Positions 1,856 to 29,607 of a stretch of DNA of 38,972 nt are shown piece by piece. The notes beneath the pieces are model-generated. The model did no database searches. It worked only from the letters and a program-made list of their open reading frames with translations, and was not told the origin of the DNA. This stretch comes from a virus. The DNA lies in IMG/VR virus record IMGVR_UViG_3300042923_000399, positions 1-38,972 of that record; one strand, 5' to 3'. The first letter of the stretch is position 1; each line of letters opens with the position of its first letter. The translations under genes and the position numbers were made by a program.

Positions 1856-2052
1856 GCGAGCGAATCGAGTACTACGACGCGCCAGCAGGCAACCTGCGCG
1901 TAGAGATGCCTGTCGCTGAGGTCCGTGCAACAGACTTCAACGCGTTTCAGGAGGAGTTCGAGCAACTAGCGCGACGGTACTCGCAATGGGGCATCAGCAT
2001 GAGCGTGAGTGCACCCCGGCAGCGTTCACGGATCGTCGACGACGATGGCTAG
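1852..2052 (+). CDS. hypothetical protein, 66 aa
   Basis: A small acidic protein of unknown function that starts with GTG in the overlap GTGA. Its own RBS (GACAGGAG) lies inside the preceding gene. The N-terminus MSERIEYYDAPAGNLRV continues a repeated MSER start shared with the gene at 4434. It overlaps the integrase start by eight bases. Position directly before int makes an excision or regulatory role possible, but nothing in the sequence shows a DNA-binding fold. Confidence 0.6.
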   Translation: MSERIEYYDAPAGNLRVEMPVAEVRATDFNAFQEEFEQLARRYSQWGISMSVSAPRQRSRIVDDDG

Positions 2053-3283
2053 GGCTAAGGGTGAGGGTGGCCTGTTCTACTCGGAGGCCCGCGGTTTATG
2101 GATCGGACGCATACAACTCCCACCCGGACCAGACGGGAAACCCCGCCGCAAACAAATCACCGCGAAAACGCAAGCCGCGCTACAGAAGAAACTGTCAGAC
2201 CTTCGCCGGCAGCTCGAGAAGCAAGGCGACCTGCACACCGCATCATTCAAGGTTGACGACTTCCTTGACTACTGGATGCGTGAGATCGTGACACCCACGC
2301 GCCGGCCGAAGACTGCGGCGACGTATCGGTCGAATCTGAAGTGGGTGTCGCAGGCGATTGGGCGGATGCGGTTGCCGGATGTGAAGCCGGAGCATGTGCG
2401 GCGTGTGTTCACCCTCATGCGTGAAGCCGACCCGCCCAAGTCCTCCACCTACCAACGCAACGTGCACTCGGTGATGGCGGCAGCGTTCATGGACGCCGAA
2501 CGCGAAGGCCGCATCCCCCGCAACCCCGTCGACCTCGTACCCGCACCCAAAAAAGCCGTCACCGACCTCCACGCCCTCACAGCACGGGAAGCCATCGACC
2601 TCCTCGAAGTGTTCTCCCAATCCTCCGAAGGCGCACTCTGGGCGACGTTCATCCTCACCGGGGCACGCAGGGGTGAAGTGCTCGGGTTGCAGTGGGACCG
2701 GGTCACAGATGTTCTCGACCTGTCATGGCAGTTGCAGCGCATCACAGACGGCCAACAACTCCCGGACGGGTTCGAATACCAGCACCTCACCGATGGCCTC
2801 TACCTCACTCGTCCGAAGACGCGGGCAGGGTGGCGCATCGTGCCCCTCGTAGACCCCCTAGCGTCCATCCTCACGCGTTACCGGGACCAATCCCCCACCA
2901 GCCCCTACGGCCTCGTTTTCGCGCGCCCTAACGGCGTCCCCTTCGACCCCGACTTCATCACCAAACAGTGGATCAAGATCCGCGACGACGCGAACATCAA
3001 ACGCAACGTCCGCGTCCACGACCTCCGACACACCACCGTCGACCTCCTCTACGCAGCCGGAGTCGATGAAGTCACCATCACCGCCATCATCGGCCACTCA
3101 TCCCGCGTCATGTCCAGGGCGTACAGGTCCCGGTCCGACATCGCCGCCCTCCGCAAAGGGATGCTGCAACTATCCGCATCCCTCGCCCCACCGTCTGGGG
3201 TGGCTGTTAATGTGAACGTAGAAGCCCCCGACCCGATTGCGACGGGCCGAGGGCAAGAGCCGACTACAGAGGAGTCGACATGA
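2045..3283 (+). CDS. int: tyrosine-family site-specific integrase
   Basis: This is a 412-aa tyrosine recombinase that would integrate and excise the phage at a host tRNA gene. An N-terminal arm-binding-like segment (MARAKGEGGLFYSEARGLW) is followed by a SAM-like core-binding domain (VDDFLDYWM...RPKTAATYRSNL). The catalytic domain shows the conserved residues: Arg in TGARRGEVLGLQW, HDLRHT, the second His in IIGHSS, and the nucleophile Tyr in MSRAYRS. The start at 2045 overlaps the upstream gene and lacks a clear SD, so coupling is likely; an ATG at 2009 is the alternative. Two candidate attP sites lie about 0.8 kb upstream and 0.5 kb downstream. Confidence 0.95.
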   Translation: MARAKGEGGLFYSEARGLWIGRIQLPPGPDGKPRRKQITAKTQAALQKKLSDLRRQLEKQGDLHTASFKVDDFLDYWMREIVTPTRRPKTAATYRSNLKWVSQAIGRMRLPDVKPEHVRRVFTLMREADPPKSSTYQRNVHSVMAAAFMDAEREGRIPRNPVDLVPAPKKAVTDLHALTAREAIDLLEVFSQSSEGALWATFILTGARRGEVLGLQWDRVTDVLDLSWQLQRITDGQQLPDGFEYQHLTDGLYLTRPKTRAGWRIVPLVDPLASILTRYRDQSPTSPYGLVFARPNGVPFDPDFITKQWIKIRDDANIKRNVRVHDLRHTTVDLLYAAGVDEVTITAIIGHSSRVMSRAYRSRSDIAALRKGMLQLSASLAPPSGVAVNVNVEAPDPIATGRGQEPTTEEST

Positions 3284-26120: not shown

Positions 26121-26468
26121 TCAGGTGTTCCATCCACCTGGCTGATGCTGTGACGTCTCACTGTCATGGTGTGGCTTACACAAGCCGCGTCCATGTGCTG
26201 GGTCGTTGGGGTTGAGTCCACGTTCTTGGAGTTCGCGTCTGCTCAACGGGTAGTGGTCAGCTACTGTGCTGAAGTTGATGCACCCGGGTATGACGCAGAT
26301 GGGGTCGCGTGTGAGTACGTGGTTGCGGAAGGCTTGGTGTCCACGTGTGTTGTAACCCCGGTCCCGTGCTGTACCCCTAGCCCTGTCCGCTTGGGTGGTG
26401 CATGTGGGGCAGCGTCCACCCTTCCCCTCGTACAGGGTTGGGCATCCGGCCACGTTGCACACGCGCAT
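26121..26468 (-). CDS. HNH endonuclease next to terminase
   Basis: 115 aa from the ATG at 26468 (GAGG six bases upstream). Two CxxC-type pairs (CNVAGC, CPTC) and the HNH core: HQAFRNHVLTRDPICVIPGC, VADHYPLSRRELQERG and CKPHHDSET. HNH proteins of this type beside terminase genes (HK97 gp74 type) assist terminase cutting in other phages; a packaging role is therefore likely here. The 186 bp down to the terminase gene hold no ORF I trust; a GAGGT-tttttTc-ACCTC stem lies at 26032-26048. Confidence 0.88.
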   Translation of the reverse strand: MRVCNVAGCPTLYEGKGGRCPTCTTQADRARGTARDRGYNTRGHQAFRNHVLTRDPICVIPGCINFSTVADHYPLSRRELQERGLNPNDPAHGRGLCKPHHDSETSQHQPGGWNT

Positions 26469-26608
26469 GGTGTACCTCGGAGGTTCAGGTGTCGAAGGGA
26501 ATCGGAAATCTGTGTGCACGCCTTATTCGGAGCGTGCGTGAGTGCCGTTACAAGCACACCGCCAGAGCCTTCTCCTGTTTGGAGTCCGGGTAGCCCTGTT
26601 ACATCGAC

Positions 26609-26699
26609 TCGTGGAGCTGCCGGTAATCGAAACCGGTGTGTCCGTATTAGAGAAAGCGCGAAACGCGCGGACTCTAATACGGGCCTTCCTGTCAGCCCC
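26609..26699 (-). ncRNA. tmRNA-like tRNA-like RNA without a message domain (candidate)
   Basis: Read leftward, GGGGCTG (26699-26693) pairs with CAGCTCC (26619-26613), the same acceptor stem as canonical tmRNA, including the G3-U70 wobble that alanyl-tRNA synthetase reads. A73 follows, then CGA instead of CCA. The T arm is perfect: CCGGT-TTCGATT-ACCGG (26636-26620). In place of D and anticodon arms there is a 10-base ACAGGAAGGC and an 11-bp helix CCGTATTAGAG / CTCTAATACGG (26682-26672 with 26652-26642), capped by GCGCG-TTT-CGCGC. This is the layout of a tmRNA tRNA-like domain with a closed P2 helix and no tag message. Could be a decayed tRNA. Confidence 0.6.
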
Positions 26700-26751
26700 G
26701 TGGTGTGGTTTGCGTCGTCACCGCGACGAGATAGACGAGAACCCCCTCAGA

Positions 26752-28217: not shown

Positions 28218-29360
28218 TCAAAGGATGGTTAGGGAGCTCAGATCGAAGCCTTCTTCGGTGATGTCGAAGACGAGCAGGCCAGCGTCGCTATCACCCGCGC
28301 CGATGTTGCGGAACCACGAGGAACCGTTATCGGTGGTGCACGCTTGCAACCACCACTTCTGGCGTCCCGTTACGGCGTTACGGCCTGAGGGGAGCACGGT
28401 GAGGTGGTGGTAGTGGCCGGTGAGGAGGATGTCAGCGGTTGCGGTGGGCATGCCACCGTGCTGCTGCTTCTGCCACCATGTGACCGCCTGGCCAGTGTTG
28501 AACTGGTTCCCGTGGACCACACCCAAACCGGTGCCGAGGACGTCGATGACGACGGACTCGTTGTACATGTCGGGGAACGTCCAGTGCGCGTCGATACCGG
28601 CCGCGTTGGCCAGTTTCTCAACCTGACGGTGCACGAAAATACCGAGGTCATCACCGGGGCGTCCGAGCTGCTGCTTACCGGAACGCCACTGGGTGTGGTT
28701 CGACGGGATCGACACCACATCAACACGCCCATGCCGTTGCATGACCTCGATGAACCGGTACACCTCGGTACCGGCAAGGTCCATCTGCTGCGCTAGGGAC
28801 AGGTCGTTGGTGAACATCGGGTTCCCACCCGACTCGAACCCCTCGAACAGGTCACCAACCTCAGCGAGCACCGTTGACTGCGGCTTACATTTGGCGAGGT
28901 GCTTTGTAAGTTTCTCGCGCATCGCTTGCAGTCTGTCGATGAGTTCGGGTGTTCCACCCCGATGGTCTACCTTGCCCGCTTGAACGTCCGAAAGGGCGAC
29001 GACAGTTACTCGGCTCGAAGCCGTACCCCTGACGGGGTTTCGTGGTTTGCGTCTCGCCTCGGCGTAGAGGGCAGGGAGGTCGATAGCTTCTTCACCAGCC
29101 GTGAGGGCTTCAAAGGTGAAGAAGAAACTGTAGGTGTCTTCCTTGTCGTGGTGTGTCTTGGACCACTGGGACACTTTGCCAACGATGCGGAAGGCGTCAG
29201 GGTCGAGGCCGGCGAGTGTGAGCAGTTCCCGGTAGTCGGTGACCATGCGACGAACCGGGCCGGTAGCCGCTGTACCGCCGTTCTCGTCGAACTCGGCGTG
29301 CTGCTGGTACTGCTTCGGTACCACGACGGGCGGGTTGCTGAGGGCTTCTTCAAGAGACAC
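28218..29360 (-). CDS. Mre11/SbcD-like metallophosphoesterase
   Basis: 380 aa from a GTG at 29360 (AAGGGG seven bases upstream). The calcineurin-type metal ligands appear in order: VVALSDVQAGKVDH (Asp, His-like), AEVGDLFEG (GD), IPSNHTQWR (NH), VVHGNQFN and LLTGHYHHLTV (GHxH). Actinophage proteins of this kind are usually called Mre11-like nucleases. It may process DNA ends in replication or packaging. The N-terminal 120 residues (VTDYRELLTLAGLDPDAFRI) are phage-specific. No SbcC/Rad50 partner is in the window. Confidence 0.85.
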   Translation of the reverse strand: MSLEEALSNPPVVVPKQYQQHAEFDENGGTAATGPVRRMVTDYRELLTLAGLDPDAFRIVGKVSQWSKTHHDKEDTYSFFFTFEALTAGEEAIDLPALYAEARRKPRNPVRGTASSRVTVVALSDVQAGKVDHRGGTPELIDRLQAMREKLTKHLAKCKPQSTVLAEVGDLFEGFESGGNPMFTNDLSLAQQMDLAGTEVYRFIEVMQRHGRVDVVSIPSNHTQWRSGKQQLGRPGDDLGIFVHRQVEKLANAAGIDAHWTFPDMYNESVVIDVLGTGLGVVHGNQFNTGQAVTWWQKQQHGGMPTATADILLTGHYHHLTVLPSGRNAVTGRQKWWLQACTTDNGSSWFRNIGAGDSDAGLLVFDITEEGFDLSSLTIL

Positions 29361-29607
29361 GGGGAAGCCCCTTCTTCCGACGCCACGCCCCGAAGGATGT
29401 GTCCGCCATCTCGGGGGCGCCGTACTTGCGCAGCTTCTCGAAGAGGTCGGTGTGGCCCCATTCGCGGTTGCGCGCGGCGGTGAGGACGGCTTCACGCCGC
29501 TCCTCGGGAAGAGTGTCAAGCCACGCGTCCATGCGGGACTTACCGGTTGTTGCTCTCACCCGCGGTTCCGCGAGCTCTTCAATCATCGGGTCCACGGTCG
29601 CTCCCAT
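29350..29607 (-). CDS. small possibly DNA-binding protein, 85 aa
   Basis: Starts at one of two close ATGs (29607 or 29586); the only nearby RBS-like stretch (GGGGGAG) is rather far. RRKKGL at the end and a helical DTLPEERREAVLTAARNREW / HTDLFEKLRKYGAPE middle suggest a helix-turn-helix-like fold. It overlaps the phosphoesterase gene by 11 bases and is first after the regulatory block at 29.67-29.9 kb. Confidence 0.6.
   Translation of the reverse strand: MGATVDPMIEELAEPRVRATTGKSRMDAWLDTLPEERREAVLTAARNREWGHTDLFEKLRKYGAPEMADTSFGAWRRKKGLPRVS

Follow-up and report, generated by a model that had tools for sequence, protein, structure and literature searches.

A message-less tmRNA-like RNA with a conserved alanine identity pair in a phage packaging region and in unrelated phages

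A virus record of 38,972 bases, analysed over its whole length and called the window here, carries on its minus strand an 88-nt element (26699 to 26612) with the build of the tRNA-like domain of tmRNA but without the message. The phage packaging genes lie on the same strand. Judged from sequence, the form is recurrent and structurally conserved in phages of very different backgrounds, with its alanine pair under selection; the kind is already known from one phage, DS6A (PMC4131195). The sequences themselves supply the fold, its compensatory conservation, a near-invariant G3-U70 pair with A73, the lack of an anticodon or tag frame, and the exchange with tRNAs in one genomic slot. Our preferred explanation, to which we give about an even chance, is that the phage makes a message-less RNA that is trimmed, CCA-tailed and charged with alanine, and that competes with and damps host tmRNA during infection.

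An earlier note on this DNA had proposed a tRNA-like domain of tmRNA without a message at 26609-26699, and both the fold and a covariance-model match (R1, see below) confirm that anatomy. Read 5' to 3', the element is GGGGCTG-ACAGGAAGGC-CCGTATTAGAG-(TCC-GCGCG-TTT-CGCGC-TTT)-CTCTAATACGG-ACACA-CCGGT-TTCGATT-ACCGG-CAGCTCC-A; positions 26609-26611, on the CGA side, are its 3' trailer. Its parts are as follows.

26612..26699, minus strand: whole element, message-less tmRNA-like RNA (tRNA-like domain); fold z -5.7; R1 72.7 bits, E 3e-14
26693..26699, minus strand: acceptor stem, 5' strand GGGGCTG, G1-G7, with G3 as half of the alanine identity pair; sequence, and covariation in relatives
26683..26692, minus strand: stemless D-loop ACAGGAAGGC, 10 nt, GG kept, UUCGAC motif absent; sequence and alignment A3
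26672..26682, minus strand: P2-like helix, 5' strand CCGTATTAGAG; fold
26653..26671, minus strand: inner loop with the GCGCG/CGCGC hairpin that closes P2, hypervariable among relatives, no tag frame; fold
26642..26652, minus strand: P2-like helix, 3' strand CTCTAATACGG; fold
26637..26641, minus strand: linker ACACA, from P2 to the T arm; sequence
26620..26636, minus strand: T arm CCGGT-TTCGATT-ACCGG; T-stem pairs covary, with 100% of cells paired in relatives
26613..26619, minus strand: acceptor stem, 3' strand CAGCTCC, with U70; G3-U70 in 19/19 aligned relatives
26612, minus strand: discriminator A73, CCA unencoded; sequence, A73 invariant across A3

The acceptor strands with G3-U70 and A73, and the perfect T arm, that the note had pointed out are thus present in both sequence and fold. 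The D arm is indeed absent, its place being taken by the stemless 10-nt loop. The sequence holds no anticodon, and there is no room for a tag frame: only 19 nt separate the two P2 strands, and 10 of these are paired together. The helix described as 11 bp with a closed loop does have 11 bp, but P2 also contains an internal 5-bp hairpin. In L240, the closest relative, this P2-closing hairpin shows a compensatory change from G-C to A-U.

The minimum-energy fold consists of the acceptor stem, the P2-like helix and the T arm (-43.5 kcal/mol, z = -5.7), and none of 200 shuffles folded as stably. A descriptor that requires a 7-bp acceptor in which six or more pairs are Watson-Crick, together with a T stem of 5 bp and a TTCRA loop, matched once on the two strands of the window and never in 100 dinucleotide shuffles. 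A chance fold is ruled out by these two comparisons. The note had suggested ARAGORN and an Infernal search with the tmRNA model among its checks; neither ARAGORN nor Rfam called anything in the window. ARAGORN reported neither a tRNA nor a tmRNA at the element, and Rfam gave no match, even at E values up to 10 over the 501 bases around it.

The MRE11 region of the window is 78% like Microbacterium phage Footloose, its terminase region is 71% like Brevibacterium phages, and the cellular relatives of its TerL are from Mycetocola, Arthrobacter and Brevibacterium. Upstream of the element are an MRE11-like exonuclease gene and a few small ORFs, and an HNH gene comes just after it. A location near a packaging HNH gene had been proposed, and the HNH gene is downstream as claimed; the position can now be refined: the element follows a 56-aa ORF, and some 145 nt separate it from the likely HNH start codon.

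28218-29519: MRE11-like exonuclease gene (phrog_284)
26922-26752: 56-aa ORF preceding the element
26702..26719, minus strand: conserved leader motif GACGACGCAAACCACACC, directly upstream of the element, which marks the RNA slot in relatives; leader scan
26491..26501, minus strand: conserved TTCCCTTCGAC, which closes the slot ahead of the HNH gene; relatives
26121..26519, minus strand: HNH endonuclease gene, downstream of the element and ahead of the terminase genes, likely ATG at 26468; phrog_589 (E 2e-17) and sequence
2009-3283, strand opposite to the element: tyrosine integrase gene, 23 kb from the element

No promoter was found upstream of the element, and a leader hairpin has no energy support (z 0.09). 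Relatives were gathered by means of the gene preceding TerL and by means of the conserved leader GACGNCGCAAACCACACC, the acceptor not being a criterion in the leader search; a search with the pattern GGGGCTGAN{2,5}GGNAANGCCC added L240. In these relatives, the slot from the leader to TTCCCTTCGAC is occupied by RNA genes, usually a single tagless RNA directly 3' of the leader, which ordinary tRNAs sometimes follow or replace. The slot yielded 26 distinct complete tagless RNAs, the window's included, plus one incomplete copy (L165). They are 79-105 nt long, P2 is nearly free in sequence and length, and most give the same three helices as the element when folded without constraint.

Other armless RNAs, with non-alanine acceptors, occupy the slot in some relatives. 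About 100 nt after its mini RNA, L172 has a second armless tRNA-like RNA of 58 nt (~881-824, minus strand; TGGTCAG..CCGGG-TTCGAGT-CCCGG-CTGACCA), with a non-alanine acceptor and a weak Rfam mascRNA match. Another armless tRNA-like class replaces the tmRNA-like RNA in L009/L202, L010/L151 and L153 (for example, GAGGCG..CGCCTC, with a 6-bp T stem, so that acceptor and T stem total 12 bp), and between the leader and HNH gene of L155 and L198 lie odd tRNA-Glu-like and long acceptor-paired sequences with large insertions. Arthrobacter phage Sue2 (L340, 1454-1527) has a tRNA-Trp upstream of its right-end HNH gene, where phage Elezi has a tmRNA-like RNA; tRNAs and mini RNAs therefore share the slot in named phages as well.

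The stretch 26500-26610 (minus strand), made up of the roughly 110 nt that follow the mini RNA and common to the window and L190, has GGTGTGC..GCACAC arms and is possibly a further RNA with structure. In the window, the P2 hairpin (CGTATTAGAG..CTCTAATACG, 26642-26682) recurs free-standing in relatives (L015 at 3493, L004 at 72 and L010 at 1111), in the opposite orientation and with GCGTGGGCG arms, and is possibly a mobile palindrome or a terminator. In different phages, the tagless RNA has an MRE11-like exonuclease gene just ahead of it or nearby, and in L048 and L084 the mini RNA abuts a phrog_284 gene.

Alignment A3 comprises 19 relatives and excludes the window. The covariance model built from it, R1, of the kind that the earlier note had proposed building from relatives, recovers the window with a score of 72.7 bits (E about 3e-14, with 0.53 Mb searched). 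Standard pairs fill 96.5% of the paired cells of A3, compared with 31-46% in slid-partner controls. Two-sided changes occur at all five T-stem pairs and at two acceptor pairs: pair 4-69 flips between G-C and C-G in six sequences, and pair 6-67 changes on both sides in five. A lack of conservation of both acceptor strands in relatives was one of the two outcomes that the note had named as refuting its reading; these compensatory changes show that it did not occur.

Within this variation, the alanine pair stays in place. In A3, G3-U70 is found in 19/19 sequences and A73 is invariant; across the slot, the pair is kept in 24 of the 26 RNAs, over six different acceptors. The exceptions are L154/L158 and L161, with GGGGTG/CATCCC, while U70 is present in L174, L201, L203 and L204. 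As a control, the viral-contig search pattern was altered at a single base, U70 to C70, and both sets of matches were classified alike. Among the matches listed for the U70 pattern (GGGGCTG..CAGCTCCA), 71 of 99 were tRNA-Ala and 27 were tagless RNAs. The C70 pattern (GGGGCTG..CAGCCCCA) gave 34 matches, of which 30 were tRNAs and between none and two were tagless candidates, both resembling tRNAs missed by ARAGORN. For the U70 matches listed, Fisher's test gives p = 1e-4 if no C70 candidate is counted and 8e-3 if both are. This is strong but not conclusive evidence for a link between the tagless form and the alanine identity pair, with shared ancestry contributing. Selection on G3-U70 is evident from these sequences.

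The form extends beyond the slot. A scan of viral contigs with GGGGCTG..TTCGA..CAGCTCCA returned, among the matches listed, tRNA-Ala genes and many tagless RNAs in unrelated contigs, and several of these tagless RNAs have the canonical tmRNA D-loop UGGUUUCGAC. The Rfam tmRNA model, RF00023, also gives tRNA-sized matches of up to 39.6 bits in ordinary bacterial genomes; therefore, only scores above the Rfam cut-off of 47 were counted, and a 31.5-bit match in L172 was dropped as support. Nine of the 12 contigs tested scored 50-72 bits, and each match spans only about 80 nt, so the message is missing in those nine RNAs. With a targeted pattern, 43 viral contigs were obtained, in which P2 and the T arm covary very strongly, the acceptor being fixed by the pattern. 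The genes beside tagless RNAs vary, and include those for head proteins, an MRE11-like exonuclease, ParB-like proteins, methyltransferases, a Cas4-like exonuclease and integrase. Named phages also carry such RNAs: the cultured Arthrobacter phage Elezi (R1, 32.5 bits), Stenotrophomonas virus Jojan60 (72.9 bits, GGGGCAT/ATGCTCC, overlapping an annotated hypothetical protein in part) and Streptomyces phage Riptide (53.7 bits, GGGTTTG/CAAATCC, unannotated). All three keep G3-U70 in differing acceptors, and none of the RNAs is annotated as such.

With bacterial tmRNA (ssrA, RF00023), the element shares the G3-U70/A73 acceptor, a stemless D-loop with GG, P2, the T arm and the lack of an anticodon, but it has no message domain, resume codon, tag frame, stop codon or pseudoknots. 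The tmRNA D-loop motif GGUUUCGAC, present in L030, Jojan60 and others, is absent from the window's loop (ACAGGAAGGC), and whereas unrelated tagless RNAs exceed the RF00023 cut-off, the window is recognised by neither ARAGORN nor RF00023. G3-U70, A73 and the T arm are also common to tRNA-Ala, although of the two only tRNA-Ala possesses the D and anticodon arms. Full tmRNAs encoded by phages (mycobacteriophages, phage G, Melnitz) are likewise phage-borne alanine acceptors but, unlike the element, have the message domain. Organellar message-less tmRNAs (mitochondrial, and the ~65-bp plastid genes of Mallomonadaceae) share the tRNA-like domain without a message; unlike the element, they are reduced from a resident gene and are not phage cassettes.

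The closest precedent is Mycobacterium phage DS6A, listed as a 'TLD only' tmRNA (tmRNA Website tmID 11587; PMC4131195, PMC11915505); a 2025 tmRNA database paper repeats this entry and adds message-less plastid genes (PMC11915505). Compared by description, DS6A likewise combines a tRNA-like domain carried by a phage with the lack of a tag frame. It is the single reported case, and the window subgroup differs from it in its diverged D-loop, hypervariable P2 hairpin and fixed slot before the HNH-terminase genes. We did not find the breadth, slot, variable P2 or G3-U70 selection of phage message-less RNAs described in the papers searched.

Model R2, built from canonical tagless RNAs, scores the window at 30.1 bits and tRNA-Ala at 33-44 bits, and so does not separate them. 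Four bridging RNAs (L040, L083, L087 and L059) score 40.6-50.2 with R1 and 50.2-54.3 with R2, compared with at most 36.4 and 44.1, respectively, for tRNA controls. These bridging sequences and the shared architecture link the subgroup to tmRNA-type RNAs; however, given the R2 result, tmRNA descent is unproven for the subgroup, and the D-loop without the tmRNA motif makes both descent and SmpB binding uncertain. That the element is built, and probably works, like the tRNA-like domain of tmRNA is therefore a firmer statement than that it descends from tmRNA.

Simple capture from a host tmRNA was rejected: tmRNA acceptors are GGGGATG in Mycetocola and Arthrobacter and GGGGCCG in four other Microbacteriaceae. 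The 5' part of the window's element has no significant match in host tmRNA. Over 200 Mycetocola-family genomes, R1 found only four matches, all within full host tmRNA genes; R2 over 296 actinobacterial genomes found none at E 1e-7, a weak result from a run without a positive control. In three other mini RNAs (L192, L159 and L178), the first ~18 nt (GGGCCGAGYAGTAACGCC) resemble a Microbacteriaceae tmRNA segment, GGGCCGAGYAGAACGCC, which is internal, near the tmRNA 3' end (host tmRNAs in L395, L396 and L398). For L192 and L159, the likeness has an uncorrected p of about 0.01 or below; it is absent for the window. In these hosts, a 3' fragment of tmRNA might by itself adopt a mini-RNA fold.

Taken together, these properties suggest that the element probably interferes with, or short-cuts, host rescue of stalled ribosomes. 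In the explanation we prefer, the transcript would be trimmed by host tRNA enzymes and given CCA, AlaRS would charge it with alanine, and EF-Tu, possibly with SmpB, would bring it to stalled ribosomes. An RNA lacking a resume codon could not complete trans-translation there, and would thus compete with and damp host tmRNA. The DS6A TLD-only gene lends such a decoy outside support, as does an inhibition experiment: according to PMC4131195, which cites Mao et al. 2009, a molecule similar to the DS6A TLD is a strong inhibitor of tmRNA, in chargeable and unchargeable form alike, perhaps through titration of SmpB. That the reported inhibition is independent of charging, yet G3-U70 is kept, counts against our explanation. 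Simple titration of SmpB would not need G3-U70, and the strict retention of this pair suggests that charging matters. A charged dead end or a tagless rescue factor thus fits the conserved alanine pair better than plain titration does.

The second of these, a working tagless rescue RNA, we regard as rather unlikely. Here, the alanyl-RNA with SmpB would enter stalled ribosomes and take the nascent chain, and drop-off and peptidyl-tRNA hydrolase would resolve the complex; phage-occupied ribosomes would be freed and phage protein left untagged for degradation. Retention of G3-U70 is far stricter than a mere decoy requires, which speaks for this possibility. We know of no mechanism that completes rescue without a message, and the window subgroup lacks the tmRNA D-loop motif. 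Some mitochondria keep message-less tmRNAs together with SmpB and are thought to benefit (PMC11915505), but the sole experiment cited is one of inhibition (PMC4131195).

It is unlikely that the element is instead a charged tRNA mimic aimed elsewhere, either luring away host enzymes or defences directed at tRNA or aminoacyl-tRNA, or supplying alanyl-RNA to a reaction outside the ribosome. The slot is common to ordinary tRNAs and to armless RNAs of other acceptor types, and the hypervariable P2 suggests recognition of the acceptor and T half only; against this, other phages have many tagless RNAs with the canonical tmRNA D-loop, which points towards the tmRNA pathway. We consider it improbable that the fold is a processing mark at which RNase P and the 3' tRNA enzymes cut, separating the upstream transcript from that of the HNH-terminase genes and releasing an RNA with no role. 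Throughout this phage group the element has the same flanking sequences and can be replaced by a tRNA, as such a mark would allow, but cutting needs no G3-U70, which is the most constrained pair, and unrelated phages have such RNAs elsewhere in their genomes. A copy of the host tmRNA 3' end serving as attachment site, which many actinophages carry as attP (PMC10865867), or a decayed tRNA is very improbable, as those copies hold the 3' half only and lie beside the integrase, the element has both acceptor strands, conserved, with the integrase 23 kb away, and the covariation in A3 excludes decay.

To our knowledge, ribosome rescue by tmRNA is nearly universal among bacteria. We tentatively propose, at somewhat under even chances, that several unrelated phage groups encode small message-less alanine-accepting tRNA-like RNAs that depend on charging and, on entering host ribosomes or the rescue pathway, act either as a charged dead end or as a factor for rescue without tagging, amounting to a largely unannotated, RNA-based control of trans-translation. 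The family has been overlooked by ARAGORN and, in the window subgroup, by Rfam. The near-exclusive retention of G3-U70 predicts that charging is needed for function. If these RNAs do control trans-translation, the pathway would become a recognised phage target, and natural RNAs of 75-105 nt would provide tools for studying a charged, message-less tmRNA on the stalled ribosome.
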